DNA from: Pararhodobacter sp. SW119
Lineage (GTDB): Bacteria > Pseudomonadota > Alphaproteobacteria > Rhodobacterales > Rhodobacteraceae
Assembly: GCF_017811755.1 (NCBI RefSeq)
Contig: NZ_JADDJF010000001.1
Span: 1 to 64,000 of the forward strand
Reading direction: 5' to 3'
Length of the DNA stretch: 64,000 bases
Shown: piece after piece, positions 3,545 through 57,510 of the stretch
Position numbering within the stretch: position 1 is the stretch's first letter
Layout: each line of letters starts with the position of its first letter
Made by a program: the position numbers and the translations under genes
Notes under the pieces: generated by a model
What the model saw: only the letters and a program-made list of their open reading frames with translations
Told to the model about the DNA's origin: nothing
The model's database searches: none

Positions 3545-3616
3545 GGTCCGCTGGCGGACCATCGTATAAGTACCAGATAAGAAACGACTTTACCGAAAAA
3601 TTTACCGCAATGAAAC
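3545..3616 (+). repeat. Convergent-gap composite element, copy a
   Basis: An inverted repeat GGTCCGCTGGCGGACC (3545-3560; arms GGTCCGC/GCGGACC around TG) is followed by TTTACCGCAATGAAAC (3601-3616). The gap from the 14-base core (3546-3559) to the motif is 41 bases. It lies between the 3' ends of plsC and dctM. Six other copies occur in the window. The copy-a motif differs from the others at one base (TTTACCG instead of TTAACCG). Confidence 0.75.
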
Positions 3617-3634
3617 CTTGCTTGCCAAATCGTT

Positions 3635-4918
3635 TCAGAACCCGCTGATCCGCGGCAGCCAGGTCGAGATCGCGGGCACGAAGGTCAGCACCAGCAGCAC
3701 CAGGATGTTCGACAGGAAGAACGGCGGCAGCTCGCGCACCAGCGCGGTCGGGCGCAGCTTCACCGCCGAGGCGACGACGAAGAGAAGGCTCCCCACCGGC
3801 GGCGTCGTCAGCCCCAGCGTCAGGTTGACGATCACCACGATGGCGAAATGGATGGGGTCGATCCCCAGCGCAAAGGCCACCGGCGCCAGGATCGGCACCA
3901 GGATCATCACCCCCGGCAGCGGGTCCATGAAGAGCCCGAAGATCAACAGCAGCACATTCACCGCCAGCAGGAACACGATCGGGCTGAGGTCCAGCGCGAC
4001 GATCCAGGCGGCGAAGGCCTGCGGCACGCTTTCGATGATCAGCATCCAGGCGAAGGCCCGCGCCGCGGCCAGAATCAGCAGCACCGCCGCCGAGGTCATC
4101 GCCGCGCGCAGAAAGATCCCCGGCAGGTCGCGCAGCCTGAGCGAGCGGTAGACGAACATCCCGCACAGAAGCGCATAGGCCACCGCCATGACCGAGGCCT
4201 CGGTGGGGGTGAAGATGCCACCGCGGATGCCGCCGATGATCAGCGCGATCAGCCCCAGCGCCGGCGCGGCGTAAAGCGTCGCGCGGCCGCGCTCGGCCCA
4301 ACTGGCGCGCGCCTCGGTCGCGGCAAAGGCGCGGCGGCGGCTCATCCACCAGTTGGTGAAGAGCAGCCCCGCCGAGATGCACAGCCCCGGCAGGATGCCG
4401 GCCATGAACAGTGCCACCACCGACACGCGCTCGTCCTGCATGGCGTAGATGATCATGATGATCGACGGCGGGATGATCGGCCCGACCACCGCCGCCGACA
4501 CCGTCAGCGCCCCGGCATAGGCGCGCGGATAGCCACCCTGTTCCATCATGCGGATCATCATCGCGCCGGGGCCCGCCGCATCGGCCAGCGCCGAGCCCGA
4601 GATGCCGGCAAACATCGTCGACGCGCCGACATTGGCATAGCCCAGCCCGCCGCGCAGATGCCCGGTAAAGCGCACGGTGAACAGCAGCAGCGCGCGGGTC
4701 ATCGCGCCGCCGGTCATCAACTCGGCCGCGAGGATGAAGAACGGCACCGCCAGCAGCGGAAAGCTGTCGATGCCCGAAAACATCTCCTTGACGATGACGA
4801 TGGCCGGATAGCGCGACCCGAAGGTCAGCGCCAGGAAGGCCGCAATGGCGATGGCAAAGGCCACCGGCACGCCGAGTGCGAGCAGCAGGAAAAGTGCGGC
4901 GAAGAGGATCTCAGCCAA
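3635..4918 (-). CDS. dctM: TRAP transporter large permease (DctM)
   Basis: This 427-residue integral membrane protein is the large subunit of a tripartite ATP-independent periplasmic transporter, taking up organic acids with Na+ or H+. About twelve hydrophobic helices are visible. The conserved family blocks include MFAGISGSALADAAGPG (near residue 105) and GPIIPPSIIMIIYA (near 150). The start is a TTG overlapping the dctQ stop by eight bases; it gives the usual N-terminus MAEILFAALFLLLALGVPVAFA, and GGGGGCC lies just upstream. It is the last gene of a dctP-dctQ-dctM operon and converges on plsC across a composite repeat element. Confidence 0.93.
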   Translation of the reverse strand: MAEILFAALFLLLALGVPVAFAIAIAAFLALTFGSRYPAIVIVKEMFSGIDSFPLLAVPFFILAAELMTGGAMTRALLLFTVRFTGHLRGGLGYANVGASTMFAGISGSALADAAGPGAMMIRMMEQGGYPRAYAGALTVSAAVVGPIIPPSIIMIIYAMQDERVSVVALFMAGILPGLCISAGLLFTNWWMSRRRAFAATEARASWAERGRATLYAAPALGLIALIIGGIRGGIFTPTEASVMAVAYALLCGMFVYRSLRLRDLPGIFLRAAMTSAAVLLILAAARAFAWMLIIESVPQAFAAWIVALDLSPIVFLLAVNVLLLIFGLFMDPLPGVMILVPILAPVAFALGIDPIHFAIVVIVNLTLGLTTPPVGSLLFVVASAVKLRPTALVRELPPFFLSNILVLLVLTFVPAISTWLPRISGF

Positions 4919-5441
4919 GCTGGCCCCCGGTCATGCCGGCCTCCCCGTCGTCGTCGTCGCCCGCATGGCGCCCGGACAGGATCAGCCGCGGCGCGATCAG
5001 CGCCAGATGCACGATCAGCAGGGCAAAGCCCACCGGCATCGCCAGGTAGATGTACCAGTAGGAGATGCGCGTGGCCGGCGTCAGCTGCCGGCCCATCCGC
5101 GTCATGTATTCCTGCCCGACCCAGACCATATAGGCAAAGAACCCCGCCAGCAGCAGCACGAGGGCTGCGCGCAGCGCGATCTGCACCCGGGTCGGCAGCG
5201 CCTCCTGCAGGTTGGTGATGGCGACATGGCCGCCCTGGCGCAGGACCAGCCCGGCGCCGAGGAAGGTCATCCAGATCATCAGGTAGCGCGCCACCTCGTC
5301 GGCCCAGGGGATGGAATTGTTGGTCAGGTAGCGCAGCGCGACATTGGTGAAGACAACCCCCGACATCGCCACCAGGCAGGCGATCACCACCCAGCCGTTG
5401 AGGGCGACGAAGGCGCGTTCGGCCTTTCGGAATAGCGACAT
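4911..5441 (-). CDS. dctQ: TRAP transporter small permease (DctQ)
   Basis: This 176-residue protein with four hydrophobic helices is the small membrane subunit of the TRAP transporter. Family features are the N-terminal helix VVIACLVAMSGVVFTNVALRY, the motif NNSIPWADEVARYLMIWMTFLGA and the block LRQGGHVAI. It partners with the large permease, whose TTG start lies inside the end of this gene. The ATG start sits 60 bases after the dctP stop, beyond an intercistronic hairpin. The long Asp/Gly-rich C-terminal tail (HAGDDDDGEAG) is cytoplasmic and not obviously conserved. The substrate cannot be told from this subunit. Confidence 0.9.
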   Translation of the reverse strand: MSLFRKAERAFVALNGWVVIACLVAMSGVVFTNVALRYLTNNSIPWADEVARYLMIWMTFLGAGLVLRQGGHVAITNLQEALPTRVQIALRAALVLLLAGFFAYMVWVGQEYMTRMGRQLTPATRISYWYIYLAMPVGFALLIVHLALIAPRLILSGRHAGDDDDGEAGMTGGQLG

Positions 5442-5468
5442 CGGGTTTCGTCCGTCGGCGGGACTCGG

Positions 5469-5495
5469 CGGCCCCGACCCTGCGGGCCGGGGCCG
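5469..5495 (-). promoter_or_regulatory. Intercistronic hairpin between dctP and dctQ
   Basis: An 8-bp perfect stem (CGGCCCCG / CGGGGCCG) with an 11-base loop begins six bases after the dctP stop codon. There is no U-tract. In such operons a hairpin here often protects the 3' end of the binding-protein message or partly terminates, giving more binding protein than permease. That role is an inference from its position. Confidence 0.5.
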
Positions 5496-5501
5496 GGCGC
5501 G

Positions 5502-6500
5502 TCACTCGGTGGCGATGATCGCCTCGATCAGCGACTGGTCGTAGGTCTCGTAGTATTGCTCGTAGGCCGGGGCAAGCGCCTCCTGGAAGGCGGCGCGATC
5601 CTCGGCCGAGAGCACGGCCACGTCCATGCCGCGCTCGCGCAGCGTCTCCAGCCCGCTTTCCTCGACATCGTCGACGAAGCCGCGCATCGCGGCCACGGCC
5701 TCGACCGCGGCTTCGCGGAAGATCTGCTGGTCTTCTTCGGACATCGCGTCCCAGACCATGGGAGAGATCAGGATCATCGCCGGCGAATAGACATGACCGG
5801 AGATGGTCAGGTATTCCTGCACGTCATTCAGGTTGACCGAAACGATCACCGACAGCGGGTTTTCCTGCCCGTCGATTGTGCCCTGCTGCAGCGCGCCGAT
5901 CACCTCGGGCCAGGCCATCGGGGTCGGCGCGGCGCCCAGGGTCTGGAAGGCGGTCAGGTGGATCGGGTTTTCCATCGTGCGCAGCCGCATCCCCGAGATG
6001 TCCTCGGGGCCGCCGATCTGGTTGCGGTTATTGGTGATATGACGAAAGCCCTGCTCGCCCCAGGCCAGCGCGACCAGCCCCTCGTCGTCGAACTTTTCCA
6101 GGATATCCTGGCCGATGGGACCGTCGAGGACGCGGCGCGCATGGCCGAGATCGCGGAAGAGGAACGGGATGTCGAAGACCCCGGTCTCGGGGACGAAATT
6201 GGCCAGCGTGCCTGACGACACGATTGTCGCCTCGACCGTGCCCAGTTGCACGCCCTCGATCACCTCGCGCTCACCGCCGAGGCCCGAGGATGGGAAGTGG
6301 CGGAAGACATAGCGGCCGTCGGTACGCTCCTCGACCAGCTCCTGCCAGCGCGCGGCGGCGACGCCGTAATGCGAGTCGGGCGCGGCGGCCAGCGCGTAGC
6401 CGATCTTGATCTCGGTCTGTGCCAGAAGCGGCGTGGCCAGAAGCGCGCCGGACAGGGCGCCAGACAGGGCGCCGAAAAGGATGGATCGCTGCAGGGTCAT
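5502..6500 (-). CDS. dctP: TRAP transporter substrate-binding protein (DctP family)
   Basis: This 332-residue periplasmic protein binds the substrate and delivers it to DctQM. A signal peptide is clear (RSILFGALSGALSGALLATPLLA, cleavage near residue 26). It is followed by the family's TEIKIGYALAAAPDSHYGVAA start. Other DctP blocks are GVQLGTVEATI, FDIPFLFRD, KPL-like region GMRLRTMENPIHLTAFQTLGA and WPEVIGALQQGTIDGQENPLS. The ATG was chosen for its GGGAGGA ribosome site; an open extension upstream has no signal-peptide logic. Together with an Arg in RLRTMEN, the region fits carboxylate ligands such as C4-dicarboxylates, but the exact ligand is unknown. Confidence 0.92.
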   Translation of the reverse strand: MTLQRSILFGALSGALSGALLATPLLAQTEIKIGYALAAAPDSHYGVAAARWQELVEERTDGRYVFRHFPSSGLGGEREVIEGVQLGTVEATIVSSGTLANFVPETGVFDIPFLFRDLGHARRVLDGPIGQDILEKFDDEGLVALAWGEQGFRHITNNRNQIGGPEDISGMRLRTMENPIHLTAFQTLGAAPTPMAWPEVIGALQQGTIDGQENPLSVIVSVNLNDVQEYLTISGHVYSPAMILISPMVWDAMSEEDQQIFREAAVEAVAAMRGFVDDVEESGLETLRERGMDVAVLSAEDRAAFQEALAPAYEQYYETYDQSLIEAIIATE

Positions 6501-6533
6501 GTGGGTCCTCCCGGGGTTCACGATGATGGGGAC

Positions 6534-6578
6534 CGTCCGGGGCGCGCTTGCGCCGGCAAGGCGCAGGGCGTCCGGACG
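6534..6578 (-). promoter_or_regulatory. Imperfect long hairpin in the dctP leader
   Basis: Read toward dctP, the outer arms CGTCCGG/CCGGACG (6534-6540 and 6572-6578) pair perfectly. An inner stem TGCGCC/GGCGCA (6549-6554, 6560-6565) closes on a GGCAA loop. The region between the stems is mismatched. It ends 33 bases before the dctP ATG, so it may be in the leader of the dctPQM message. No known riboswitch class was recognised. Confidence 0.4.
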
Positions 6579-6781
6579 ATGCCCGCCGAATAGGCGCGAT
6601 GCGGCGCGCCGAGTCAACGCCCCCCGGGTCCGTTGGACGGGGGCGGCGGGCAGGATACCGGTTGCGGGGGGCGGCGCTCGGCCCCCGTCGAGGGGGCCTC
6701 GCGCCGGGGGGCTGACGCCCCCGGTCCCGGCCGCGGGCGGGGGGCGAAGCCTTGCCGGCGGATGAACGCAGCGTTCGGAAC

Positions 6782-6843
6782 TGCCATACGCTTGCCATAC
6801 GCTTGCCAGCCGCTTGCCATACGCCTGCCAGCCGGCCTGCCGG
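6782..6843 (+). repeat. 11-bp-unit tandem repeat, site 1
   Basis: Successive units read GCCATACGCTT, GCCATACGCTT, GCCAGCCGCTT, GCCATACGCCT and GCCAGCCGGCCT, so the unit is 11 bp with two alternating versions. The same array, with one unit fewer and opposite orientation, lies at 17765-17818. Both are preceded by GCGTTCG. The function is unknown. Confidence 0.75.
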
Positions 6844-6890
6844 CGGGGATTCCCGTGGGGCGGGGCGGTGCTTTTCCTGACCCTTTTGGC

Positions 6891-6918
6891 TTGACGCGCC
6901 TTCCGGCATCGCTTATCT
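6891..6918 (+). promoter_or_regulatory. Candidate sigma-70-type promoter of tRNA-Asp
   Basis: TTGACG (6891-6896) and TTATCT (6913-6918) are separated by 16 bases. Transcription would start about seven bases later, just before the mature tRNA 5' end at 6932. Confidence 0.55.
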
Positions 6919-6931
6919 GCACCCTCGTCGC

Positions 6932-7008
6932 GCGGTTGTAGCTCAGTCGGTTAGAGTACCGGCCTGTCACGCCGGGGGTCGCGGGTTCGAGCCCCGTCAA
7001 CCGCGCCA
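6932..7008 (+). tRNA. tRNA-Asp (anticodon GTC)
   Basis: This 77-base cloverleaf has acceptor arms GCGGTTG and CAACCGC, discriminator G, and an encoded CCA end (7006-7008). The D arm contains AGCTCAGTCGGTTAGAGT. The anticodon stem CCGGC/GCCGG closes the loop CTGTCAC with anticodon GTC at 6966-6968. The T arm contains the GGTTCGA block. It stands alone between the TRAP operon and murD, with its own likely promoter. No integrase or attachment-site duplication was seen beside it. Confidence 0.97.
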
Positions 7009-7068
7009 TTTCCTGCCTTTTGCTTGCCCGGTGACTCGGCTAGTTCGAGCCGTGGTGCAGGGGGAATC

Positions 7069-8472
7069 ATGATTGTAGTTCAAGGCTTTGCGGGGCGTCG
7101 CGTCGGGGTTCTGGGGCTTGGCCGATCGGGGATGGCAGCGGCGGCATCGCTGCAGGCCGGCGGGGCCGAGGTCTGCGCCTGGGACGACAGCGCCGAAGCC
7201 CGCGAACGCGCCATGGCGGCGGGTCTGACCCCGGTCGACCTGACCCGGCAGGGGGCGTTGGACGACCTCGCGGTCCTTGTCGTTTCGCCCGGAATTCCAA
7301 GCCTTTACCCCGCCCCCCACCCGGTCATCGCCGCCGCCTGCGCCGCCGGCGTCCCGGTCGACAACGACGTGGGCCTTTTCTTCCGTGCGCTCGGTCGCGG
7401 CGACTGGGCCGAGATGGATGCACCGCCGCGGGTGATCGCCGTGACCGGATCGAACGGCAAGTCGACGACCACGGCGCTGATCGCCCATATCCTGGAAGGC
7501 GCCGGCCGGCCGGTGCAGATGGCGGGCAACATCGGCACCGGCGTCCTGTCGATCGATCCGCCCGGCGAGGGTGCGGTGATCGTGCTGGAACTGTCCAGCT
7601 ACCAGACCGAACTGGCCCGCGCGTTGACCCCGGATGTTGCTGTATTCACAAACCTTTCGCCCGATCACCTGGACCGCCACGGCGGCATGGGCGGCTATTT
7701 CGCCGCCAAACGCCGGCTTTTCGCCGAGGGCGGGCCGGACCGCGCCGTGATCGGTGTGGACGAGGCCGAGGGGCGGTATCTGGCGATGCAGCTGTCCGAA
7801 GCCCCGGAAGATATGCGCGTCATTCGCGTCTCCTCCGGTCAGAAACTGGCGGGGCGGGGGTGGTCGGTCTTTGCCCGCAAGGGGTTTCTGGCCGAGTGGC
7901 GGGGCGGGCGCCAGGTGGCCTCGGTCGATCTGCGCGCGATGCCCGGGCTGCCCGGTGCGCACAACCACCAGAACGCCTGCGCTGCCTATGCCGCGCTGCG
8001 CGCGCTCGGCCTTGGCCCGCGGCAGATCGAACCGGGCCTGGCGAGTTTCACCGGCCTGCCGCACCGCAGCCAGTTGGTGGCCGAGATCGACGGCGTGCGA
8101 TTCATCAACGATTCCAAGGCGACCAATGCCGACAGCGCCGCGCGCGCGCTGCAGGCCTTTCCGCGAATCCGCTGGATCGCCGGCGGTTTGGGCAAGGAGG
8201 GCGGGATCGCCGCGCTGGTCCCGCATCTGGGGCCTGTCGCAAAGGCCTATCTGATCGGCCATTCGGCGCGCGACTTTGCCCTTCAGATGGGTGAAACGCC
8301 GCACGAGCAGTGCCAGACCATGGCGCAGGCCGTCGCCCGCGCGGCGGCGGAAGCCGAACCCGGCGAGGTCGTGCTGCTTGCCCCCGCCGCGGCCAGCTTC
8401 GACCAGTACCCGGATTTCGAGAAACGCGGAGAGGACTTCATGGCCTGCGTTCGCGCGCTCGAAGCGTCATGA
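7069..8472 (+). CDS. murD: UDP-N-acetylmuramoyl-L-alanine--D-glutamate ligase
   Basis: This 467-residue cytoplasmic Mur ligase adds D-glutamate to UDP-MurNAc-L-Ala in peptidoglycan synthesis. The N-terminal Rossmann-like domain begins [16 protein letters not shown]. The ATP loop is [15 protein letters not shown] near residue 125. The Mur family blocks [24 protein letters not shown] and [12 protein letters not shown] follow in order, the last ones being the start of the C-terminal domain. The ATG with AGGGGGAA upstream was preferred over an earlier in-frame codon. The stop overlaps the ATG of the next gene, a RarD-type permease. The gene stands apart from the main division/cell-wall cluster. 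Confidence 0.96.
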
Positions 8473-9383
8473 CACCCCCCGCCACGCTGCTGGGCGGCGA
8501 CACGCCCAGGGGCTTCGTCTTTGCGCTGACGGCCTACCTGCTTTGGGGTTTCCTGCCCCTCTACTTCAGGCTGATCGATCACATAGGCATGCTGGAGGTC
8601 CTCGCCCATCGTGTCGTCTGGTCGTTGCCGATAGCATTGGCCGTGCTGCTGGCGCTGGGGCGGACCGATACGCTGCGCGTGGCGCTGCGCACGCCGCGGA
8701 TGCTGGCGATGGGATGCGTGACCGCGACGCTGATCTCGATCAACTGGGGTGTCTATATCTGGGCGATCCACAGCGGGCAGGCGCTGGAGGCCGCCCTTGG
8801 CTACTACATCAACCCGCTGTTCAGTATCTTCCTGGGCGCGGTGCTGCTGGGCGAGCGGTTGAGCGCGCGGCAATGGGTGGCGGTGGGCCTTGCGGCACTC
8901 GCCGTCGCAGTCCTGACATTCGAGGCGGGGCGGCTGCCGCTGGCGGCGCTGACGCTGACCGTGAGCTGGGGGTTTTACGCCTATTTCAAGCGCTCGCTTC
9001 CGATCGGGCCGAACCAGGGCTTCGCGCTGGAGGTGATCATACTGATGCCGGTTGCGCTGGTCTACCTGATCTGGCTGCAGAGCCAGGGGACGCTGCATTT
9101 CGTGCAGGCGGGTCCACGCGATCTGGCGCTGCTGGTGGGCTGTGGTGTGATCACCGCCGTGCCGCTGATGATCTATGCGAACGGGGCCAAGCTACTGACG
9201 CTGTCGACCATCGCCATCATGCAGTATATCGCGCCCACGATGATCTTCCTGATCGCCGTTTTCCTGTTTGCAGAACCGTTCGGCACCGCCCGCGCGATCG
9301 CGTTTCCGATGATCTGGGCGGCACTGGTGCTCTACACTTCCGAGATAGTGGGACGTCGCCTGCGTCGCCCGCCCATCGGTTAG
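8469..9383 (+). CDS. rarD: RarD-type EamA-family permease
   Basis: This 304-residue inner membrane protein belongs to the drug/metabolite transporter superfamily. About ten hydrophobic helices form two EamA halves. The N-terminal pattern [38 protein letters not shown] and the central [26 protein letters not shown] are the RarD subfamily signature (quoted here only as position markers, about residues 14-52 and 90-118). The ATG overlaps the murD stop (ATGA), so the two are probably co-translated. RarD was named for chloramphenicol sensitivity in Pseudomonas, but the true substrate is not known. Confidence 0.85.
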
Positions 9384-9426
9384 GCGCCCCCAAGGGCAAC
9401 CTCTTGCGCGAGCGGGGGTGGGCGCC
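9383..9426. terminator. Imperfect GC hairpin between rarD and pdhC
   Basis: GGCGCC at 9383-9388 can pair with GGCGCC at 9421-9426, and the adjoining CCC with GGGGG around a two-base bulge. It fills the 64-bp gap between two convergent genes. No U-tract is present, so a factor-dependent or bidirectional stop is possible. Confidence 0.35.
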
Positions 9427-9447
9427 CCGTGAGGGACGCCGCACGGT

Positions 9448-10794
9448 TCAGGCGAGCATCACCAGCGGGTTCTCAAGGTTCTCGATCACCGCCGCCAGGA
9501 ATTCCGCCCCGAGCGCGCCGTCGATGACCCGGTGATCGACCGAAAGCGTCATCGACATGACTGTCGCGGTCGTCAGTTCCCCGTCGGCGCCCACCACGGG
9601 TTGCTTGATGCCCGCCCCGACCGCCAGGATCGACCCGTGGGGCGGATTGATGACCGCGTCGAAATTCTCGATCCCGAACATGCCGAGATTTGAGATCGCG
9701 AAACTGCCGCCGACGTATTCGTGCGGGGCAAGCTTGCGGTTGCGGGCGCGGGCGGCGAGGTCCTTCATCTCGGCCGACAGCGCCGAGAGTGTTTTCATGT
9801 GCGCGTCCTTGATCACCGGCGTGAAGAGCCCGCCGTCGACCGCGACCGCGACCGCCACGTCCGAGGGCTTCAGCCGCAGGATCCGGTCGCCGGCCCAGAC
9901 GGCATTGGCATCGGGCACCTTCTGCAGGCCGAGGGCGCAGGCCTTGATGATGAAGTCGTTGACCGAGAGCTTCACGCCCCGCGGTTCCAGTTGCTTGTTC
10001 AGCCGGGCGCGGAACTTCATCAACGCGTCGAGTTGCACCGAGCGGCGCAGGTAGAAATGCGGGATGGTCTGCTTGGCCTCGGTCAGCCGGGCGGCGACGG
10101 TCTTGCGCATCCCGTCGAGTTTGACCTCCTCGTAGTCGCGACCTTCGAACATCCTCGCGACCTGATCGGCGGTGGGGCCGGAGGCCATGGCAGCGGCTTT
10201 GGCGGGGGCGGTTTCGGCCGGCTTTGCCGCGGTGGGCTGCGCGGACCTTGGCGCGGCGCTCGCCCCCTCGACATCGGCCTTGACGATGCGGCCGTGCGGG
10301 CCGGATCCCTTGATCTGCTTGAGATCCAGCCCCTTGTCGGCGGCGATCCGGCGGGCGAGCGGGGAGGCGAAGAGGCGCTTGCCGTCGGCCGACGGCGCGG
10401 GTGGGGCCTTCGTCTGGGATCCGGCGCTCTCGGACTCCGCCGGGGCGGGCTTCTCGGAGGCCCCCTTCGCCTTTGGCGCGGGGGCCGCCTCGGCGCCCGC
10501 GTCGGCCTTGTCGGCCTCCGGTTGCGCCTTGCCGATGTCGTCGGCGCTTTCGCCTTCTTCCAGAAGGACCGCAATGGGGGTGTTGACCTTGACCCCCTCG
10601 GTGCCTTCCGAGATCAGGATCTTGCCGAGCGTGCCTTCGTCGACGGCCTCGAACTCCATGGTCGCCTTGTCGGTCTCGATCTCGGCGATGATCTGGCCGG
10701 CGGTGATTTCGTCCCCCTCCTTGACCAGCCATTTGGCGAGAGTCCCTTCCTCCATCGTCGGGGACAGCGCGGGCATCAGGATTTCAACGGGCAT
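9448..10794 (-). CDS. pdhC: Pyruvate dehydrogenase E2, dihydrolipoamide acetyltransferase
   Basis: This 448-residue core subunit of pyruvate dehydrogenase transfers the acetyl group from lipoamide to CoA. It has one N-terminal lipoyl domain (residues 1-85, lipoyl-lysine K43 in ETDKATMEF), an Ala/Pro linker, a peripheral subunit-binding domain ([20 protein letters not shown], about 141-160), a second linker, and the catalytic domain with VDHRVIDG near the end. It is the last gene of pdhA-pdhB-pdhC, 10 bases after pdhB. Its lipoyl domain is almost identical at DNA level to that of pdhB. No lpd (E3) gene lies in the window. Confidence 0.96.
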
Positions 10795-10804
10795 CGCGCG
10801 CTCC

Positions 10805-12196
10805 TTACCTGTAGGTGACCTTGTGGGCAGCCTCGATCACGTCGTTGGTTGTGACCAGCGCGAGCTTTTCCAGATTTGCGGCGTAGGGCATTGGCACGTC
10901 CTTGCCGGCAAGGTTGATCACCGGTGCATCCAGATGGTCGAAGGCCTGTTCCATCACCACCGACGTGATGTAGTTGCCGACCGAGCCCTGTGGAAAGCCT
11001 TCCTCGACGGTGATCAGGCGGTTCGTCTTCCGCACCGAGGCGAGGATAGTATCGGTATCCATGGGGCGGATCGTGCGCAGGTTGATGACCTCGGCTTCGA
11101 TCCCGTCCTCGGCCAGTTTTTCCGCCGCTTCGAGCGCGTAGGTCATGCCGATGCCGAAGCTGACGATCGTCACGTCCGCGCCCTTGCGGGCGATATGCGC
11201 CTTGCCGAACGGTATGGTGAAATCCTCGAGTTCCGGAACCTCGAAGCTGCGGCCATAGAGGATTTCGTTTTCGAGGAAGATCACCGGATTCGGATCGCGG
11301 ATCGCGGATTTAAGGAGACCCTTGGCGTCGGCGGCGGTGAAGGGCATCACCACCTTGAGGCCGGGGATCTGGGCGTACCAGGCGGCATAACACTGGCTGT
11401 GCTGCGCACCAACGCGCGCTGCGGCGCCGTTCGGGCCGCGAAACACGATCGGACATCCCATCTGGCCGCCCGACATGTAGAGGGTCTTGGCGGCGGAGTT
11501 GATGATGTGATCGATTGCCTGCATGGCGAAATTGAAAGTCATGAATTCGACGATGGGACGCACGCCGCCAAAGGCTGCACCCACGCCGATGCCGGCAAAG
11601 CCGTGTTCCGTGATCGGCGTGTCGATGACCCGGCGCGCCCCGAATTCATCGAGCAGGCCCTGGGTGATCTTGTAGGCGCCCTGGTATTCGGCCACCTCCT
11701 CGCCCATGACGAAGACAGTGTCGGTGCGCCGCATCTCTTCGGCCATGGCGTCGCGCAGGGCTTCGCGCACGGTCTGGCTGCGCGTCGGCGTGCCTTCGGG
11801 CCAGTCAGGCGTGCGGTCGGGCTCGGGCGGGCGAAACTTCTCGCGGGCAGCGGCTGGCGCCGCGTCGGCTCCCTTCGCCGTTTCGGCCTTCGTGTCGCCG
11901 GCGTCGGCCTTGGCGGCCTCGGGCTTCGCGGTGTCGATGTCGTCGGCGCTTTCGCCCTCCTCGATCAGAACTGCGATGGGGGTGTTGACCTTCACCCCCT
12001 CCGAGCCTTCCTCAATGAGGATCTTGCCGAGCGTGCCTTCGTCGACGGCCTCGAACTCCATCGTCGCCTTGTCGGTCTCGATCTCGGCGATGATCTGGCC
12101 GGCGGTGATTTCGTCCCCCTCCTTGACCAGCCACTTGGCGAGGGTGCCTTCTTCCATCGTGGGCGAGAGGGCGGGCATCAGGATCTCGGTTGCCAT
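10805..12196 (-). CDS. pdhB: Pyruvate dehydrogenase E1 beta subunit with N-terminal lipoyl domain
   Basis: At 463 residues this is about 130 longer than a plain E1-beta. The extra part is a lipoyl domain (residues 1-85, K43 in ETDKATMEF) and an Ala/Asp/Lys linker. The E1-beta proper starts near 135 ([35 protein letters not shown] region), with [23 protein letters not shown] and the C-terminal domain ending in [13 protein letters not shown]. It pairs with E1-alpha to decarboxylate pyruvate with thiamine diphosphate. Lipoylated E1-beta subunits are known in alphaproteobacteria. It lies between pdhA (12-base gap) and pdhC. Confidence 0.95.
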
Positions 12197-17322: not shown

Positions 17323-17393
17323 GTCCACGCGTGGACGCGTCGCCAAGCCGTTCAATCCGAAGGATAAAAATCCGGAATTAACCGCAATGAAAC
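17323..17393 (+). repeat. Convergent-gap composite element, copy b
   Basis: The perfect palindrome GTCCACGCGTGGAC (17323-17336) is followed after 41 bases by TTAACCGCAATGAAAC (17378-17393). The spacer begins GCGTCGCCAAGCC. It lies between the 3' ends of the dehydratase gene and the 84-residue hypothetical gene. Confidence 0.8.
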
Positions 17394-17413
17394 TTCTGGC
17401 CGGAAGGCCGTAG

Positions 17414-28243: not shown

Positions 28244-28328
28244 GCCGGACATGTGCCGCCGCCCGGTGCCGGCCGATCCGGCACCGCCCGCTGGCGCCCC
28301 GGCCGCGTGCCGGGCTCTGCGGCCGAAA

Positions 28329-28406
28329 GTTTCACTACGGTTAATTTTCCGAATTTACCAATGTTTTTCAGCGCCTTGCCGAAGCGTCCAAATTTGGACG
28401 CTTCGG
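28329..28406 (-). repeat. Convergent-gap composite element, copy g
   Basis: On the minus strand, a 28-bp perfect palindrome (28379-28406, centre GCGTCCAAATTTGGACGC) is followed by TTAACCGTAGTGAAAC (28344-28329). From the aligned 14-base core (28386-28399) the spacer is 41 bases, and it holds GGCAAGGC. It lies between the 3' ends of the NYN gene and the thioesterase gene. This is the longest palindrome among the copies. Confidence 0.8.
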
Positions 28407-31868: not shown

Positions 31869-31942
31869 CTGCGCAAATTGCGCAGAGTGGTCAAGCTACT
31901 GAAATCATTATATACCCGAAAAAAAATTAACCGGATTGCAAG
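31869..31942 (+). repeat. Convergent-gap composite element, copy f
   Basis: CTGCGCAAATTGCGCAG (31869-31885, odd-length palindrome) is followed by TTAACCGGATTGCAAG (31927-31942). The spacer from the 15-base core is 42 bases and contains GGTCAAGC. It lies between the 3' ends of hemE and mcd. With copy e, it carries the GGATT form of the motif. Confidence 0.75.
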
Positions 31943-32055
31943 CATTGGATCCGGCCCCCTCCGTTGCGATGGCGTGCGACGCCGGGGGGTCCGGGGGGCA
32001 GCGCCCCCCGGCCCGGCCCAACGCGAGGAAGGTTCGTGCGCAGCACAACCTGACG

Positions 32056-32093
32056 AGGGGCGGGAGCGCGTGGAGTCCCGCGCTCCCGCCCCT
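32056..32093. terminator. Strong bidirectional hairpin between hemE and mcd
   Basis: A perfect 15-bp stem (arm AGGGGCGGGAGCGCG) closes on an eight-base loop. It ends 11 bases after the mcd stop. G-rich runs at about 31981-32010, including GGGGGGCAGCGCCCCCC, form a further hairpin upstream in the same gap. Confidence 0.7.
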
Positions 32094-41716: not shown

Positions 41717-41789
41717 GCGTCCGCATGCGGACGCTTTGGCAAGGCCATGATTTCATTGGCGTAATCGACGCCGTTAACCGCAATGAAAT
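41717..41789 (+). repeat. Convergent-gap composite element, copy c
   Basis: The palindrome GCGTCCGCATGCGGACGC (41717-41734) is followed by TTAACCGCAATGAAAT (41774-41789). Measured from the 14-base core (41719-41732) the spacer is 41 bases; it contains GGCAAGGC. It points toward copy d, forming an inverted pair in the ptsH-hbd gap. Confidence 0.8.
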
Positions 41790-41825
41790 GTTTGGCATGG
41801 CTCCACGGTCGAGGTCCGCGCGAAC

Positions 41826-41897
41826 CTTTCATTGCGGTTAACGGCCCGAAATTTCAGTACATAATCAATGCCTTGCCGGTCTGCTCACGCGTGAGCA
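41826..41897 (-). repeat. Convergent-gap composite element, copy d
   Basis: On the minus strand TGCTCACGCGTGAGCA (41897-41882) precedes TTAACCGCAATGAAAG (41841-41826). From the 14-base core the spacer is 41 bases, with GGCAAGGC near its start. Copies c and d face each other, their motifs 36 bases apart, although their palindromes have different sequences. Confidence 0.8.
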
Positions 41898-51033: not shown

Positions 51034-51121
51034 GGGCGTCCCTCCTCCTCGGCGTCGCCATCGTGTTACGCTACGTCGCGGTCATCCTGCAACGCTGTTA
51101 CCGGATGACAGTCGCGCCGCA

Positions 51122-51223
51122 CCTGCAAAAGAGTTGCAGAATCTTCGGTACGGAGGCGCATATTCTGCAAAGCCGCCGCCGTGCAAAGGTCCTGCGCCGC
51201 GACGGCGCGCAGTTTGCAAATCA
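51122..51223 (-). promoter_or_regulatory. Cluster of TGCAAA half-sites upstream of prpE
   Basis: Half-sites are TGCAAA 51124-51129, TTGCAG 51134-51139, TGCAAA 51166-51171, TGCAAA 51183-51188 and the full palindrome TTTGCAAA 51213-51220. They lie 91-187 bases before the prpE ATG. TTTGCAAA pairs are the known site of ScfR-family regulators such as PccR of Rhodobacter sphaeroides. Here the arrangement is looser than the published pair. Confidence 0.5.
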
Positions 51224-51241
51224 AGCTTGCGGCGAGAGGCG

Positions 51242-53545
51242 TCAGCCGTAGTGTGCGACCGGCGTGCCGGCTATCGCGGCCATGTTCAGAAGCCCGCGCG
51301 CAGTGATCGACGGCGTCACGACATGCGCACGGTTGCCCATCCCCATCAGGATCGGCCCGACCTCCAGCCCGCCTGCGCGCATCTTGAGCGTGTTGCGCAC
51401 CGCCGAGGCGGCATCGGTCGAGGCGAAGATGAGCACATTCGCCGGGTCGGTGAAGCGGGCATTGGGAAACATGCGCGCGCGCAGTTCGGGGTCGAGAGCG
51501 GCATCGACCGTCATCTCCCCCTCGTAGGCGAAATCGGGGGCGTTGGCGTCGAGGATTTCGAGCGCGCGACGCATCCGACGACCGGACGAGGTGTCGAGAT
51601 TGCCGAATTGCGAATTCGAGCAGAGCGCGATGTTCGGCTCGATCCCGAAGCGCCGCACATGCCGCGCCGCGCCGACGACCGCTTCGGCGATCTCCTCCGG
51701 CGTCGGTTCGGGGTGCACCTGCGTGTCCGCGATGAAAAGGTTGCCCTCCGGCTGCAGCATCAGGCTCAGCGCGCCGACCGGGTGCATCCCGTCGCGTCCA
51801 AGGATCTGGGTCACGTAGTTCAGATGCCACAGGAACTGACCGAAGGTGCCGCAGACCAGGCTGTCGGCTTCACCGCGATGAACCATGACGGCACCGATGG
51901 CGGTGGTGTTGGTGCGCATCACCGCGCGGGCGATGTCGGGGGTGACGCCGCGCCGTTCCATGAGGGCGTGATAGGTTTCCCAGTATTCGCGGTAGCGCGG
52001 ATCGTTTTCAGGGTTCACGATGTCGAAATCGACCCCCGGGCGGATACTCAGTCCAGCGCGTTCGCAGCGCTGTGCGACGACTTCGGGGCGGCCGATCAGG
52101 ATTGGCACTTCGGTCGTCTCCTCGAGGATCGCATGCGCGGCGCGTAGCACACGCTCTTCCTCGCCCTCAGCGAAGACGATGCGGCGAGATGCCTGGCGCG
52201 CGGCCTCGAAGACGGGGCGCATGATCATGGCCGAACGGAAGACCGATGCGTCAAGCGACTGCTTGTAGGCCTCCAGATCGGGCAGGGGACGCGCTGCGAC
52301 CCCGGATTCCATTGCGGCGGAGGCGACCGCGCTGGCGACCACGCCCATAAGCCGCGGATCGAACGGCTTGGGGATCAGGTAGTCGGCGCCGAAGCTGAGT
52401 TGTTCGCCCTTGTAGGCCGCGGCGGCCTCGGCCGAGGTGGTGGCTCTGGCGAGTGCGGCAATCCCCTCGATACAGGCGATCTGCATGTCGTCGTTGATTT
52501 CGGTCGCGCCGACGTCAAGCGCGCCGCGGAAGATGAACGGAAAGCAAAGGACGTTGTTCACCTGGTTCGGGAAATCCGACCGACCGGTGGCGATGATCGC
52601 ATCCGGCACGGCCGCGCGGGCGGCATCGGGCATGATCTCGGGCGTCGGGTTTGCCAGCGCGAACACGATGGGCCGGGAGGCCATGCGCTTGACGAGTTCG
52701 ACCGACAGCACACCGGGCCCTGAAAGCCCGAGGAAGAGGTCGGCACCGTCGATCACATCCTCAAGGTTTCGCTTGTCCGTGGGTTGTGCAAAGGCCGCCT
52801 TCTGCGGGTTCATGTCGATCTCGCGGCCCTCATAGACCAGGCCATGCAGATCGCAGAGCCAGACATTCTCGCGTTTGACACCGAGCTTGAGCAGCATGTT
52901 CAGGCAGGCGATGCCGGCGGCGCCGCCGCCGGTCGAGACAATTCGAATATCCGCGAAATTTTTCCCGGCGATGTGCAATGCATTGGTCGCCGCCGCGCCC
53001 ACTACGATCGCTGTGCCGTGCTGGTCGTCATGGAAGACCGGAATGCCCATACGCTCGCGGCAGATCTTCTCGACGATGAAGCAGTCGGGCGCCTTGATGT
53101 CTTCCAGATTGATCGCGCCGAAGGTGGGCTCCAGCGCGCAGACGATCTGGGCCAGGCGCTCGGGGTCGCTTTCGTTCAATTCGATGTCGAAGCAGTCTAT
53201 GTTGGCGAACTTCTTGAACAGAACCGCCTTGCCCTCCATCACCGGCTTCGACGCCAGCGCCCCGATATTGCCGAGGCCCAGCACCGCCGTCCCGTTCGTG
53301 ACAACCGCCACGAGATTGGCGCGAGAGGTGTAGCGCGCGGCCGTTGCAGGGTCCGCCTTTATTTCCAGACAGGCTTCGGCGACGCCGGGTGAATAGGCGC
53401 GGGCAAGATCGCGACCGGTCGCCAGCGGCTTGGTCGCCCGGATCTCTAGCTTACCGGGGCGTGGGAACTCGTGATAATCCAGCGCGGTCTGACGAAAGAC
53501 GTCGGCGCGTGGATCGGGACGGTTCTGCGGGCGATCCTCGGACAT
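51242..53545 (-). CDS. maeB: NADP-dependent malic enzyme with C-terminal phosphotransacetylase-like domain
   Basis: This 767-residue hybrid has a malic enzyme half (residues 1-430) with YSPGVAEACLEI, the catalytic VMEGKAVLFKKFANIDCFDIELNE and HDDQHGTAIVV. The NAD(P) fold is VSTGGGAAGIACLNML. A phosphotransacetylase-like half follows (about 440-767; IVFAEGEEERVLRAA, MGNRAHVVTPSITARGLLNMAAIAG). The second half is thought to be regulatory, binding acetyl-CoA-like effectors. It makes pyruvate from malate for acetyl-CoA and NADPH supply. AGGAGGAGA precedes the ATG. Confidence 0.95.
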   Translation of the reverse strand: MSEDRPQNRPDPRADVFRQTALDYHEFPRPGKLEIRATKPLATGRDLARAYSPGVAEACLEIKADPATAARYTSRANLVAVVTNGTAVLGLGNIGALASKPVMEGKAVLFKKFANIDCFDIELNESDPERLAQIVCALEPTFGAINLEDIKAPDCFIVEKICRERMGIPVFHDDQHGTAIVVGAAATNALHIAGKNFADIRIVSTGGGAAGIACLNMLLKLGVKRENVWLCDLHGLVYEGREIDMNPQKAAFAQPTDKRNLEDVIDGADLFLGLSGPGVLSVELVKRMASRPIVFALANPTPEIMPDAARAAVPDAIIATGRSDFPNQVNNVLCFPFIFRGALDVGATEINDDMQIACIEGIAALARATTSAEAAAAYKGEQLSFGADYLIPKPFDPRLMGVVASAVASAAMESGVAARPLPDLEAYKQSLDASVFRSAMIMRPVFEAARQASRRIVFAEGEEERVLRAAHAILEETTEVPILIGRPEVVAQRCERAGLSIRPGVDFDIVNPENDPRYREYWETYHALMERRGVTPDIARAVMRTNTTAIGAVMVHRGEADSLVCGTFGQFLWHLNYVTQILGRDGMHPVGALSLMLQPEGNLFIADTQVHPEPTPEEIAEAVVGAARHVRRFGIEPNIALCSNSQFGNLDTSSGRRMRRALEILDANAPDFAYEGEMTVDAALDPELRARMFPNARFTDPANVLIFASTDAASAVRNTLKMRAGGLEVGPILMGMGNRAHVVTPSITARGLLNMAAIAGTPVAHYG

Positions 53546-53712
53546 TGGCGGTCTCCTCCTGCCGGCCGGTCAAGAAGATCAAGGTTAAGTGACCGCCGGC
53601 CTCCGGCATAGCCCCAATCCGGCGGGTGGTGCAACCGTCGCCAACTCAGGGGGTTGCAACGGACGCGACAGAGTTTCAGACTTCTTCCTGCCCCGTTTCG
53701 CCGGAGATCCGC

Positions 53713-54105
53713 ATGACGCTTTCCGATGCCGCCCGCGCCGTTCGCGAAAACGCCTATGCGCCCTATTCCGGTTTCAAGGTCGGTGCCGCGGTCCGGTCCG
53801 CTTCGGGCCGCATCCACACCGGCTGCAATGTCGAAAACGCGGCCTATCCGCAGGGCACCTGCGCCGAGGCCGGAGCGATCGCGGCGATGGTGGCAGCGGG
53901 TGATACGCGGATTTCCGAGGTCTTCGTGATCGCCGATGCGGCCGAACCGGTACCGCCCTGCGGAGGGTGCCGGCAGAAACTGAGCGAATTTGCCGGTGCG
54001 GAGGTGCCGGTCACGATGGCGACGACGGGCGGTCGGACGCTGACCGTGCCGCTGGGAGACTTGCTGCCCTATGCTTTCGACTCCGGTCGAATGGCCGGCG
54101 AATGA
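53713..54105 (+). CDS. cdd: Cytidine deaminase
   Basis: This 130-residue zinc hydrolase turns cytidine and deoxycytidine into uridine. The zinc and proton-shuttle site is TCAEAGAI (Cys50, Glu52), with PCGGCRQ (Cys83, Cys86) as the second site; the three-Cys form is that of the small homotetrameric enzymes. Substrate contacts are in FKVGAAV and NVENAAYP. The ATG was chosen by family length and the site CCGGAGA; a longer open frame continues upstream. Its stop overlaps the deoA ATG, so it is the first gene of the pyrimidine-salvage operon cdd-deoA-deoB-upp. Confidence 0.94.
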   Translation: MTLSDAARAVRENAYAPYSGFKVGAAVRSASGRIHTGCNVENAAYPQGTCAEAGAIAAMVAAGDTRISEVFVIADAAEPVPPCGGCRQKLSEFAGAEVPVTMATTGGRTLTVPLGDLLPYAFDSGRMAGE

Positions 54106-55409
54106 CCGCGCCGGCGCGTCTGATCGCGGCGTTGCGCGACGGACGGGTGCCAGAGGGCGAGGCGTTGTCCGGCTTCGTGCGGGGACTGGTCGATGGCTCG
54201 GTCACCGATGCGCAGGCGGGCGCGTTTGCCATGGCGGTCTGCCTGAAGGGGTTGGGCCGGGCGGGCCGCGTCGCGCTGACCGAGGCGATGCGCGACAGCG
54301 GGCGCGTCATGGACTGGGCGCTGCCGGGTCCGGTCGTCGACAAGCACTCGACTGGCGGGATCGGGGATGCCGTGTCGCTGTTGCTGGCCCCAGCGCTTGC
54401 GGCCTGTGGCGCGTATGTGCCGATGATTTCGGGCCGCGGGCTGGGGCATGCCGGCGGCACGCTCGACAAGCTCGAGGCGATCCCCGGTTTTCGGACGCAG
54501 TTTGACCCCGCCGAGTTCAGGCAGTTGGTCAGCGCCCAGGGTGCGGCGATCGTCGCAGCCAGCGTCGATGTCGCGCCCGCCGACCGGCGACTCTATGCGA
54601 TACGGGATGTGACCGGGACGGTGGAAAGCATCGACCTGATCACCGCGTCGATCCTGTCGAAGAAGCTCGCCGCGGGGCTGGATGCGCTGGTGCTTGATGT
54701 GAAGGTTGGCTCTGGCGCTTTCTTCGCGGGCATGGAGGACGCGCGCGCGCTGGCGCGGGCGCTTTGCGACACGGCGAACGGGGCGGGCTGCAAGACCGCC
54801 GCGCTGATTACCGAAATGAGCCAGCCTTTGATCCCGGCGGCGGGGAACGCGCTGGAGGTCGCCGCAGTGATGGAGAATTTCGCCGATCCCAAGGCACATC
54901 CGGCGCTGACCGAGGTGACCGTGGCCCTTGGCGGCGAGGCGCTGGCGCTTGCCGGACTGGCGGTGGACGCGAATGCTGGCGGCGCAATGATCCAGGGGGT
55001 CCTTGCGGACGGGCGCGCGGGCGAGCGATGGGGCGAAATGGTCGCGGCCCAGGGCGGGCCGTCCGATTTCCTGTCAAACTGGCGCGACCAGCTTCCCGTC
55101 GCGCGATTGGTGCGTCCTTTCGTGGCGCGCGAGGCGGGGATCGTGGCCGCCATCGATGGGCGCGCACTGGGGTATGCGGTCATCGGCCTGGGCGGTGGGC
55201 GCAGGATCGAAACCGACAGGATCGATCCTGCCGTGGGTCTTTCCGCCATTGCCCGGATCGGCGATAGCGTCGCGGTGGGCGATCCGATCTGCCTGATCCA
55301 TGCCGCAGATGAGGCGGGCTTGGCGGCGGCAGAGGCCGAGCTTGCAGGCGCCTTCACGCTGGCAGAGACAGCCGTCGCGCCGCCGCTGGTTCACGAGCGC
55401 ATCGCATGA
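54102..55409 (+). CDS. deoA: Thymidine phosphorylase
   Basis: This 435-residue enzyme splits thymidine and deoxyuridine into base and deoxyribose 1-phosphate. The phosphate-binding glycine loop is [18 protein letters not shown] and the family signature is [29 protein letters not shown] lies in the second half. The ATG overlaps the cdd stop (ATGA), and its own stop overlaps the deoB start in the same way. Deoxyribose 1-phosphate made here is the substrate of DeoB. Confidence 0.95.
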
Positions 55410-56620
55410 GCCGCGCATTCCTCATTGTCCTCGATTCCGTCGGTTGCGGCGGGGCACCTGACGCGGCCGATTTCGGTGATGCGGGCGCCAACACCCTGGG
55501 GCACATCGCCGAGGCCTGCGCGGCCGGACGGGCCGACGCGGGGCGATCGGGCCCCTTGCGGATGCCGTTCCTCGACCGTTTGGGGCTGGGGCGGGCGATC
55601 GAGTTGGCTTCGGGGATCAACCCGCCGGGGCTGGGCATCGAACCCGCGGGTCTTTGGGGCGCGGCGACCGAGGTATCGCGCGGCAAGGACACGCCCTCAG
55701 GGCACTGGGAACTGGCGGGCGTTCCGGTGCCCTGGAACTGGACTTACTTCCCGCAGGCCTTACCGGCGTTCAACGCTGACCTGGTGGCACAGGTCTGCGG
55801 GCTGGCAGGGACCGAAGGCATACTGGGCAATCGCCACGCCGCAGGTATCGCGATCATGAACGAACTCGGTGCCGAGCATCTGCGTACCGGTTGGCCGATC
55901 TGCTACACCTCGGCGGACAGCGTCTTCCAGATCGCCGCGCATGAAGAGGCATTTGGGCTTGACCGGCTATACGCGCTTTGCGCGGGGCTTGCGCCGGGGT
56001 TGCATGGGCGTCGGGTCGGCAGGGTGATTGCGCGCCCGTTCGTCGGCAGCGCCGAAGCCGGGTTCATCCGCACCGGCAACCGGCGGGACTACGCGATTGC
56101 GCCGCCGGAACCGACGCTTCTGGACTGGGCGCGCAACGAGAAGAGAGCGGTCCACACCATCGGCAAGATCGCCGACATCTTCGCGCATCGGGCGGTCGGG
56201 CAGGTCCACAAGGGACAGTCGGACAGCGACCTGATCGGGCATCTGCAGCGGCTGGCGCTTGAAGCCGAACCCGGCTCGCTGACCTTCTGCAACCTTGTCG
56301 AGTTCGACAGCAACTACGGTCATCCGCGGGACGTGGCCGGCTACGCCCGCGCGCTGGAGGCATTCGACGTCGAGGCAGGCGCGTTCCTGTCGCGGCTGGG
56401 TCCGGGGGATCTGGCGATCTTCACCGCAGATCACGGCAACGATCCGACCTGGCACGGGACCGACCATACGCGCGAACGCGTGCCGGTGCTGGCCTGGGGC
56501 TACGGGGCGGGGCGGATCGGGCAATGCGCCTTTGTCGATGTCGCGGCGTCGGTCGCGGCGCATCTGGGCCTGGCTGCGCGCGGACCCGGTCGCAGCTTCC
56601 TGCCGGAGAGAGACCCGTGA
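55406..56620 (+). CDS. deoB: Phosphopentomutase
   Basis: This 404-residue Mn-dependent enzyme of the alkaline-phosphatase superfamily converts (deoxy)ribose 1-phosphate into the 5-phosphate. Metal sites appear in [27 protein letters not shown] and [24 protein letters not shown] contains the phosphorylated Thr. It follows deoA by an ATGA overlap. An adenosine deaminase often follows deoB in related genomes; here only a 124-base gap leads to upp. Confidence 0.95.
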
Positions 56621-56744
56621 AGTCGTGGCGCGGGCGGGCGCCTTTGGCTGGACAGGGGCGGATTTCCAAGCCATCAACCGCTGCGGCGACGGCCCACGAC
56701 GCCGTGACCCGATAGTGACCGATCGAACGCCTGGAGGCCCCCGC

Positions 56745-57377
56745 ATGAGCGACCATCTGACCGTTGTCGACCACCCGCTGGTCCAGCACAAGCTGACCAT
56801 CATGCGCGACAAGACCACCTCGACCGCGAAGTTCCGCCAGCTTCTGCGCGAGGTCAGCATGCTGCTGGCCTATGAGGTGACGCGCCGGATGGAGATGACG
56901 ACGCAGCGGATCGAGACGCCGATCCAGCCGATGGACGCGCCGATCATCGCCGGCCGGAAGCTGGCGCTGGTGTCGATCCTGCGGGCGGGCAACGGGTTGC
57001 TGGACGGGATACTGGAACTGGTGCCGTCGGCGCGCGTGGGGTTCATCGGGCTCTACCGCGACCCCGAGACGCTGCAGCCGGTGCAGTATTACTGCAAGCT
57101 GCCGTCGGAGTTGGACGAGCGGCTGGTCATCGTGGTCGATCCGATGCTGGCCACCGGCAATTCCTCGGCCGCGGCGGTCGATCTGCTGAAGCAGGCGGGG
57201 GCGCAGAACATCCGGTTCCTGTGCCTGCTGGCGGCGCCCGAGGGGGTGAAGCGGATGAAAGAGGCGCATCCCGACGTGCCGATCGTGACCGCCGCGCTGG
57301 ACGAGCGGCTGAACGATCATGGCTATATCGTGCCGGGGCTGGGCGATGCCGGTGACCGGATGTTCGGCACGAAATAG
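56745..57377 (+). CDS. upp: Uracil phosphoribosyltransferase
   Basis: This 210-residue enzyme makes UMP from uracil and PRPP. The PRPP-binding loop is [17 protein letters not shown] and the uracil site is [13 protein letters not shown] near the end. [14 protein letters not shown] is the second family block. CTGGAGGCC precedes the ATG. It closes the cdd-deoA-deoB-upp run and converges on the M48-like membrane protein gene across composite element e. Confidence 0.95.
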
Positions 57378-57399
57378 AGGCGATCCGGGGCCCGACCGA

Positions 57400-57417
57400 C
57401 GGGCACGCGGGTGCCCG
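57400..57417 (+). terminator. Hairpin downstream of upp
   Basis: CGGGCAC and GTGCCCG form a perfect 7-bp stem around GCGG, 23 bases after the upp stop. Composite element e starts 20 bases further on. Confidence 0.5.
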
Positions 57418-57437
57418 GAAGGTGCCAGATGCGGCGA

Positions 57438-57510
57438 TGCTCAAGCTTGAGCAATCGCGTAACTATCTGACAAAAAAAGAAAAGCGAAAAAATCTTAACC
57501 GGATTTCAAC
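57438..57510 (+). repeat. Convergent-gap composite element, copy e
   Basis: The palindrome TGCTCAAGCTTGAGCA (57438-57453) is followed by TTAACCGGATTTCAAC (57495-57510). The spacer from the 14-base core is 42 bases and very A-rich in its second half. It lies between the 3' ends of upp and the M48-like gene. Confidence 0.75.

Follow-up and report, generated by a model that had tools for sequence, protein, structure and literature searches.

The nearest described class to the element reported here is that of the RIB or RIP elements of Escherichia coli (BIME-1 with a site for integration host factor, IHF), which reportedly were presented by Boccard and Prentki in 1993. Our element occurs in seven copies in the window, that is, the whole 64,000-nucleotide stretch of Pararhodobacter sp. 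SW119 that was analysed (contig NZ_JADDJF010000001.1, positions 1 to 64,000), and is composed of a palindrome, a candidate IHF site and a TTAACC box. Like the RIBs, it appears to be an extragenic, palindromic repeat that lies at gene 3' ends and contains an IHF site. According to one source, a RIB consists of two inverted REPs (repetitive extragenic palindromes) around an IHF site, and a REP carries a GT(A/G)G head next to its palindrome (PMC2817692). Here, there is no REP pair but a single variable palindrome and, on the other side, a box resembling an 11-bp direct repeat, and the bases ahead of the stem read (A/G)(G/A)G(T/C) in a profile of 32 copies. The geometry is fixed, the palindrome sequence is not conserved, and no match to the Y1/RAYT transposase (PF01797) was found in eight of nine element-bearing genomes searched (completeness is just 76% and 82% for two of the eight; the SW119 genome has three matches).

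Other systems resemble the element in part. The P' arm of lambda attP likewise has an inverted-repeat core, an IHF site and direct-repeat protein sites in one direction, but here more than 100 chromosomal copies are kept in place and no integrase is tied to them. Another parallel is with small mobile repeats such as Correia-type elements (PMC2229807). These are short, can hold an IHF site and are similar to miniature inverted-repeat transposable elements, with terminal inverted repeats. In our element we saw neither terminal inverted repeats nor a shared spacer, which separates it from them. The full CtrA site, TTAA-N7-TTAA (PMC6180460), is matched by the box in 16 of 30 loci of another genus (represented by genome G034) and in a few SW119 copies, but our element lies at gene 3' ends and its commonest SW119 box is unlike this site in the second half. 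Finally, pairs of motifs at a set spacing have been described in other bacteria (PMC5217627); they too have no assigned function and lie in part where convergent genes end. Their sequences and spacings are different, and the text makes no mention of IHF or TTAAC. A literature search returned no description in which we recognised the element (most subscription papers were outside its scope), and the family with its IHF core has apparently not been described previously.

Copy number and architecture

The initial annotation listed seven copies in the window, and all of them are present. It also holds that six of the seven convergent gaps of at least 100 bp carry a copy; the rest of the window has none. 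(Gene calls in the window, the genome and its relatives alike come from a custom three-base Markov caller, not a standard tool.) With up to two mismatches, the TTAACCGNANTGNAA box matches seven times in the window, compared with 0.65 expected from shuffles, and none of 100 shuffles reached this number.

The whole genome (4.51 Mb) contains 74 exact copies of TTAACCGNANTGNAA and none of the reversed pattern. A covariance model built from 32 copies gives at least 142 copies at E <=0.001, a lower bound as 150 of 1,102 candidates were scored. A composite scan of 400 kb, which required an IHF core, a stem of at least 6 and a correctly spaced TT[AC]A[CG], produced 18 intergenic matches and one genic match, with none in the reversed sequence. 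When sites are picked by the exact box alone, 40 of 41 are complementary in five or more of the six pairs 2-7 (taking the best of four offsets), a level that control offsets reach in 4.4% of 615 trials, and the best offset from palindrome centre to box is 48 nt in 38 of the 41. These counts confirm that the element is real and far more frequent than chance. Some contigs of the SW119 assembly end inside or adjoining an element (both ends of C24 and the start of C170), as if palindromes impede assembly.

The 32-copy profile resolves three parts. The palindrome has the consensus RRGYG-Y-N-C-R-M-R|Y-K-Y-G-N-R-C-R-C-TT. The second part, CAAGNCNYTGATW, spans -34 to -22 relative to the box and reads WATCARNNNNTTR on the opposite strand; with an A/T tract on its W side, this is the IHF consensus, which the initial annotation had not noticed. 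Its core is strongly conserved (C 30, A 31, A 29, then Y 31, T 30, G 31 and A 28 of 32), and of 66 box-chosen sites, 49 have a strict YAANNNNYTG core at exactly this position. About 10 bases from ATCAA there is an A-rich stretch (-12 to -9), an arrangement like that of the lambda H' site. The 'spacer' between palindrome and box thus contains an IHF consensus, which IHF is predicted to bind and bend. The third part is the box TTAACCGCAATGAAACTTTCGG, which has no dyad symmetry on its side of the element and resembles an 11-bp direct repeat in degenerate form, TTAAC-N6-TTAAC, with TTAAC-N6-GAAAC as the common SW119 form; the commonest box of the genus has this GAAAC second half and a conserved CGCAAT ahead of it. 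The centre of the IHF-like site is about 26 bp from the palindrome centre and about 30 bp from the middle of the box, so that a U-turn would juxtapose the two outer sites.

Some copies have a centre-to-box distance of 49. Most of those listed have the extra base between the IHF-like site and the box, which itself frequently deviates from the common form. In these type II copies (for example, window 57438-57516) an A or T run often directly precedes the box and its second half is often another; a second binding protein is possibly involved.

Within the window, copy a (plus strand) begins with the palindrome GGTCCGCTGGCGGACC (3545..3560), whose middle pair is non-complementary, followed by a degenerate IHF-like site on the minus strand (3567..3579; placed by the 32-copy profile, a weak match judged by eye) and a box beginning TTTACCGCAATGAAAC (3601..3622, one mismatch in the box scan). 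Copy b, also on the plus strand, has the palindrome GTCCACGCGTGGAC (17323..17336), an IHF-like site on the minus strand positioned by the same profile (17344..17356) and the box TTAACCGCAATGAAAC (17378..17399, box scan). Copy g lies on the minus strand, with a perfect 28-bp palindrome around GTCCAAATTTGGAC (28379..28406), an IHF-like site on the plus strand (28366..28378) and the minus-strand box TTAACCGTAGTGAAAC (28323..28344, box scan). Copy f (plus strand) has an odd-centred palindrome, CTGCGCAAATTGCGCAG (31869..31885), an IHF-like site on the minus strand from the composite scan (31892..31904) and the variant box TTAACCGGATTGCAAG (31927..31948, box and composite scans). Copies c and d face each other, each gene end having its own element: copy c on the plus strand with palindrome GCGTCCGCATGCGGACGC (41717..41734), a minus-strand IHF-like site placed by the profile (41740..41752) and box TTAACCGCAATGAAAT (41774..41795, box scan), and copy d on the minus strand with palindrome TGCTCACGCGTGAGCA (41882..41897), a plus-strand IHF-like site (41863..41875) and box TTAACCGCAATGAAAG (41820..41841, box scan). 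Copy e (plus strand) is of type II, with the palindrome TGCTCAAGCTTGAGCA (57438..57453), a minus-strand IHF-like site from the composite scan (57460..57472) and the variant box TTAACCGGATTTCAAC (57495..57516) at a centre-to-box distance of 49.

A second repeat family is found at 31990-32080, with GCTCCCGCCCCTCGTCAGGCTG, a hairpin and CCTTCCTCGCGTTGGGCCGGGC plus a GC-rich hairpin. It recurs on contig C1 at 92.4, 169.4, 220.4, 222.3, 222.5 and 247.3 kb; six of seven copies examined are in convergent gaps, and both of the metagenome-assembled genomes (MAGs) introduced below have matches. The window also includes a tRNA-Asp(gtc) gene (6932-7008), which is its sole Rfam match at gathering score; no RNA family was matched at the element copies.

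Position relative to genes and distribution among relatives

In 797 kb of the SW119 genome we found 49 copies, two of them without an assignable gap or gene. The remaining 47 comprise 38 in convergent and nine in tandem gaps, with none in divergent gaps or within genes. They were selected with a filter of at least 5/6 pairing, which is biased to palindromes; the box-only tests are free of this bias. Placeable bases predict a convergent share of 29%, giving P ~2e-13 for the convergent excess and ~1.5e-7 for the lack of divergent copies. The genome-wide search that the initial annotation had proposed as a check agrees with it in finding the element far above chance. Its description of the element as occurring only between convergent genes holds for the window and does not extend to the genome, with nine tandem copies, or to G034, where the bias is weaker.

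The unit is also oriented, a point absent from the initial annotation. Of 54 SW119 copies (contig C1 and further loci), 52 have the palindrome side directed at a gene 3' end, which is 4 to 172 bp away except for one case at 852 bp. Two gaps of contig C1 contain two copies each. In both, the elements are opposed, with a palindrome adjoining each gene, which indicates that the unit belongs to the gene end and not to the gap.

Among relatives, exact matches to the 19-base box (the form that includes TTT) came from 29 stretches of a named genome collection, 27 of them in two Rhodobacteraceae MAGs (CSSed165cm_500 and CSSed165cm_288); the others, in one Omnitrophica and one Ruminococcus MAG, we read as chance. 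The pattern GTCCN{5,7}GGACN{36,44}TTAAC was then counted in 198 genera. There were 60 matches in SW119 (G000), 143 in G034, 23 in G192, 22 in G085, 10 in G047 and 4 in G165, with 5, 0, 1, 3, 0 and 2, respectively, for the reversed pattern; the excess in G165 rests on its count of GTCCCACGATGGGAC (see below) and not on this pattern. All other genera gave 0 to 3 matches. The distribution is patchy, with the element in 6 of 198 genera. A presence throughout the family was considered and dropped: across 60 other genera model R1 never gave more than three matches per genus, all of them weak, and the pattern counts, with a clear excess in few genera, contradict it too. Patchiness extends to the genus itself, where 18 genomes gave pattern counts of 60 (G000), 67 (G068), 30 (G069), 12 (G077) and 0 to 2 in the others. 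Model R1 matched in three of these 18, G077 having an odd-centred form instead, and a composite scan of 200 kb of another member (G061) detected no element. The 16-base box also matched, perhaps by chance, once in each of 12 stretches of viral contigs.

The G034 palindrome reads GCGTCCGAGCTCGGACGC; its 12-base core occurs 163 times, against zero for the reversed control. Of 32 distinct palindromes examined, 28 have both an IHF core and a box by a regular-expression filter. The centre-to-box distance is 49 bp, the commonest box is TTAACTTGGACTTAAC, and the TTAAC-N6-TTAA form accounts for the 16 of 30 loci mentioned above. The IHF-like site has the opposite orientation to that in SW119 but the same centre (-22/-23). 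Junctions (n=28) are eight convergent, 18 tandem and two divergent, a weak convergent bias, and 16 of the 28 palindromes are 3-12 bp after a stop codon. In many of the 30 loci L115-L144 (uncounted), GTCCGAGG or a near form, half of the palindrome, follows right after the box.

A further group has the odd-centred palindrome GTCCCACGATGGGAC, with 17 copies in G047, 40 in G085, 10 in G165 and 34 in G192 (none for the reversed control), together with two in a fifth genus (G082). The first four genera and G077 have this odd-centred palindrome at the same spacing. In the GTCCCACGATGGGAC group (the four genera and G082), 21 of 32 distinct palindromes pass the filter for both IHF core and box, and the IHF-like site is likewise reversed about -22/-23; in G085 both orientations apparently occur within one genome (C4 and C185 versus C32). 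Gene context was read for 21 copies of this group; two at contig edges were left aside, and 16 of the other 19 are directed at a gene 3' end, including 12 in convergent gaps. Outside the SW119 genus, copies with this orientation are 1-58 bp past the stop codon. G192 is a single contig, and the 20 listed of its 34 oriented copies lie on both strands along the chromosome, with no KOPS-like polarity seen (no formal test was applied). A draw of 190 genomes of the class (three of the family), which covered the odd-centred form only, gave one match in each of six genomes.

Symmetry of the palindrome and rival explanations

In the 32-copy set, the paired share of palindrome cells is 95.6%, compared with 74.5% in shuffles, and the covariation score is 0.69 against 0.28. 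Three of five covariation measures exceed all 500 shuffles; the other two (pairs with two-sided change and further pair types) are not above the shuffles in this set. The 66 box-chosen sites provide 396 cells in pairs 2-7, of which 381 are Watson-Crick, one is G-T and 14 are other combinations. Pair 5 varies (C-G 30, G-C 17, T-A 13, A-T 2, unpaired 4), pair 2 is complementary in 63 sites and co-varies, and the central pair is complementary in 53. Pairs 4 and 7 are near-invariant (C-G and G-C, respectively, each in 65 of 66), and the outer pairs 8, 9 and 10 include 7, 7 and 34 G-T combinations.

The same symmetry is seen between species. The element is in both genomes at ten orthologous gaps of SW119 and the two MAGs, where the compared flanks are 73-90% identical. 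From an initial 13 pairs, three were dropped (one flank only, <71% identity), leaving five with both flanks and five with one; the copies were selected with the filter of at least 5/6 pairing, which favours paired ones, and the comparison covered about one-fifth of the SW119 genome, so that unmatched MAG copies are not evidence of absence. In the 80 pair cells, 55 are unchanged, 24 have two-sided changes (21 of them paired in both genomes) and one has a one-sided change. Outside the central pair, all 18 changes are two-sided and keep the pairing. For example, the palindrome of copy g is CGTCCAAATTTGGACG and that of its orthologue GGTCCACGCGTGGACC. The palindrome shifts in sequence between species and remains self-complementary. 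Loop centres also occur in both orientations (in G192, CGA 6, TCG 5, CGG 6 and CCG 3 among 20 listed of 23), and one orthologous pair has AAACTT against AAGTTT. Template switching is said to yield both arm homogenisation and spacer inversion (PMC8604942, PMC8794818), and inverted loops together with arms that change jointly suggest that it helps to hold the arms equal.

Template switching might even be the whole explanation, keeping any palindrome perfect without a function. The symmetric changes at orthologous sites and the inverted loops are what such a process should leave. Left unexplained by it are the palindrome at a fixed distance in 40 of 41 box-chosen sites and the near constancy of pairs 4 and 7, features which show that the site itself is used, and we regard a purely mutational origin as unlikely. 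Palindromy is probably kept in both ways, by function at fixed positions and by template-switch mutation copying one arm onto the other. The initial annotation, which saw selection on palindromy and not on one sequence, was half right: the arms do stay complementary as the sequence diverges, but sequence matters at pairs 4 and 7, and template switching could equalise arms without selection. It had also offered an RNA with a fixed hairpin-to-motif distance. Copies are mostly just past stop codons in the sense orientation, the stem has at least seven pairs and G-T is present at pairs 8-10, all of which would suit a terminator or 3'-end stabiliser next to an unrelated motif. However, pair 2 would be in the loop of such a hairpin, and its pairing, with the near absence of G-T in pairs 2-7, points to symmetry at the DNA level. 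The covariation is Watson-Crick only, the U tract is not conserved (the 32-copy profile has two conserved T and no T run after the palindrome, unlike an intrinsic terminator), the distance to a DNA box with a flippable IHF consensus is constant, and the Rfam search of the window gave the tRNA only. An RNA hairpin is therefore disfavoured and, in our view, improbable.

A REP-like or selfish repeat spread by a transposase would also be extragenic, palindromic, present in more than 100 copies and patchy between genomes, and BIME-1/RIB elements have an IHF site. We consider this quite doubtful, a little less so than the hairpin: there is no GT(A/G)G head, the copies have contact positions in common and not the remaining spacer, and they are found at orthologous gaps of diverged species. 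A REP/RAYT identity was rejected on the transposase, which has no match in eight of the nine genomes searched. Among the rivals, the most striking resemblance is to the lambda attachment site, whose P' arm has similar parts in similar order and spacing; the element could be a half-site for site-specific recombination, with an inverted-repeat core of variable overlap, an IHF site and direct-repeat arm sites. The central hexamer is drawn from a small set of alleles, and the copies in other genera lie close behind stop codons, both of which fit. Yet more than 100 active sites should scramble the genome, and they are kept at orthologous gaps. The SW119 genome has seven PF00589 matches, none tied to the element, and of five such loci inspected two are XerC/XerD-like and three are of mobile-element types (integrases were not profiled across genomes). 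We hold this reading to be very improbable. Least probable of all, and with only a slight chance, is that the copies are CtrA-binding sites with IHF, serving a cell-cycle role. The commonest G034 box fits the full CtrA site, but the GAAAC half and CGCAAT of the SW119 genus do not, divergent promoter gaps hold none of the 47 assigned copies, and the element is patchy while CtrA is widespread in the Rhodobacteraceae.

A putative nucleoprotein site at gene ends

The reading that we favour, with confidence about evenly divided, is that the element is an IHF-bent, three-part nucleoprotein site placed after genes, analogous to the RIBs of E. coli. The palindrome would be a dyad-symmetric protein site, in most copies the part closest to the stop codon of the gene directed at the element, and the box an 11-bp direct-repeat site of the kind bound by tandem winged-helix proteins similar to OmpR and CtrA. 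A U-turn imposed by IHF in the 41-42 bp between them would bring both side by side, and the complex might mark gene 3' ends (in SW119, chiefly convergent ones) as a barrier or anchor. The initial suggestion of two DNA sites recognised together gains support here and is sharpened by the intervening candidate IHF consensus, which keeps its position where its orientation flips. Sequence comparison shows the architecture, the copy number, the placement and orientation at 3' ends, the presence at orthologous gaps and the DNA-level self-complementarity; we infer from these that IHF may bind, that the two other proteins may be of the kinds proposed, that the DNA may loop and that transcription may be affected.

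Several observations weigh against this nucleoprotein reading. Only 35 of 78 convergent gaps of at least 76 bp (797 kb) have a copy and most genera of the family have none, so that the function is dispensable or is done otherwise. The orientation rule is not universal, since in G034 the palindrome side is toward a gene 5' end in 12 of 28. The direct-repeat view of the SW119 box is itself tentative, as exact TTAAC-N6-TTAAC is rare in the genus (two of 155 distinct copies). At least one orthologous gap with the element (1020-1300 of locus L078, MAG CSSed165cm_288) has a counterpart in SW119 without it (C1, 87.7-87.8 kb), where the convergent gap has collapsed to almost nothing. In addition, no relation to intrinsic terminators could be demonstrated: terminator-like sites are found at two of 25 ends with a sense element and eight of 43 convergent ends without an element, and since such sites are rare at all gene ends, this test of mutual exclusion is uninformative.

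A bolder version of the nucleoprotein reading, which we put forward tentatively, is that some Rhodobacteraceae use the element as a chromosome-boundary machine, in which a dimer on the diverging palindrome and a winged-helix protein on the 11-bp repeat are clamped by an IHF-imposed U-turn and insulate convergent genes from each other. If this is true, the recognition sequences turn over fast among species of one genus while the geometry stays fixed.

For decades, to our knowledge, the function of RIBs, as IHF-bearing repeats at gene 3' ends, has not become clear. The present elements, palindromic and with IHF-like sites at 3' ends, form a second lineage that is apparently unrelated and makes such a role testable by comparison, aided by the near-exact geometry and the strong bias to convergent gaps in SW119. 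The palindromes are also a natural record of symmetric mutation, with arms changed together at the ten orthologous sites, a record relevant to the question of how inverted repeats in DNA are kept perfect by template switching and selection.

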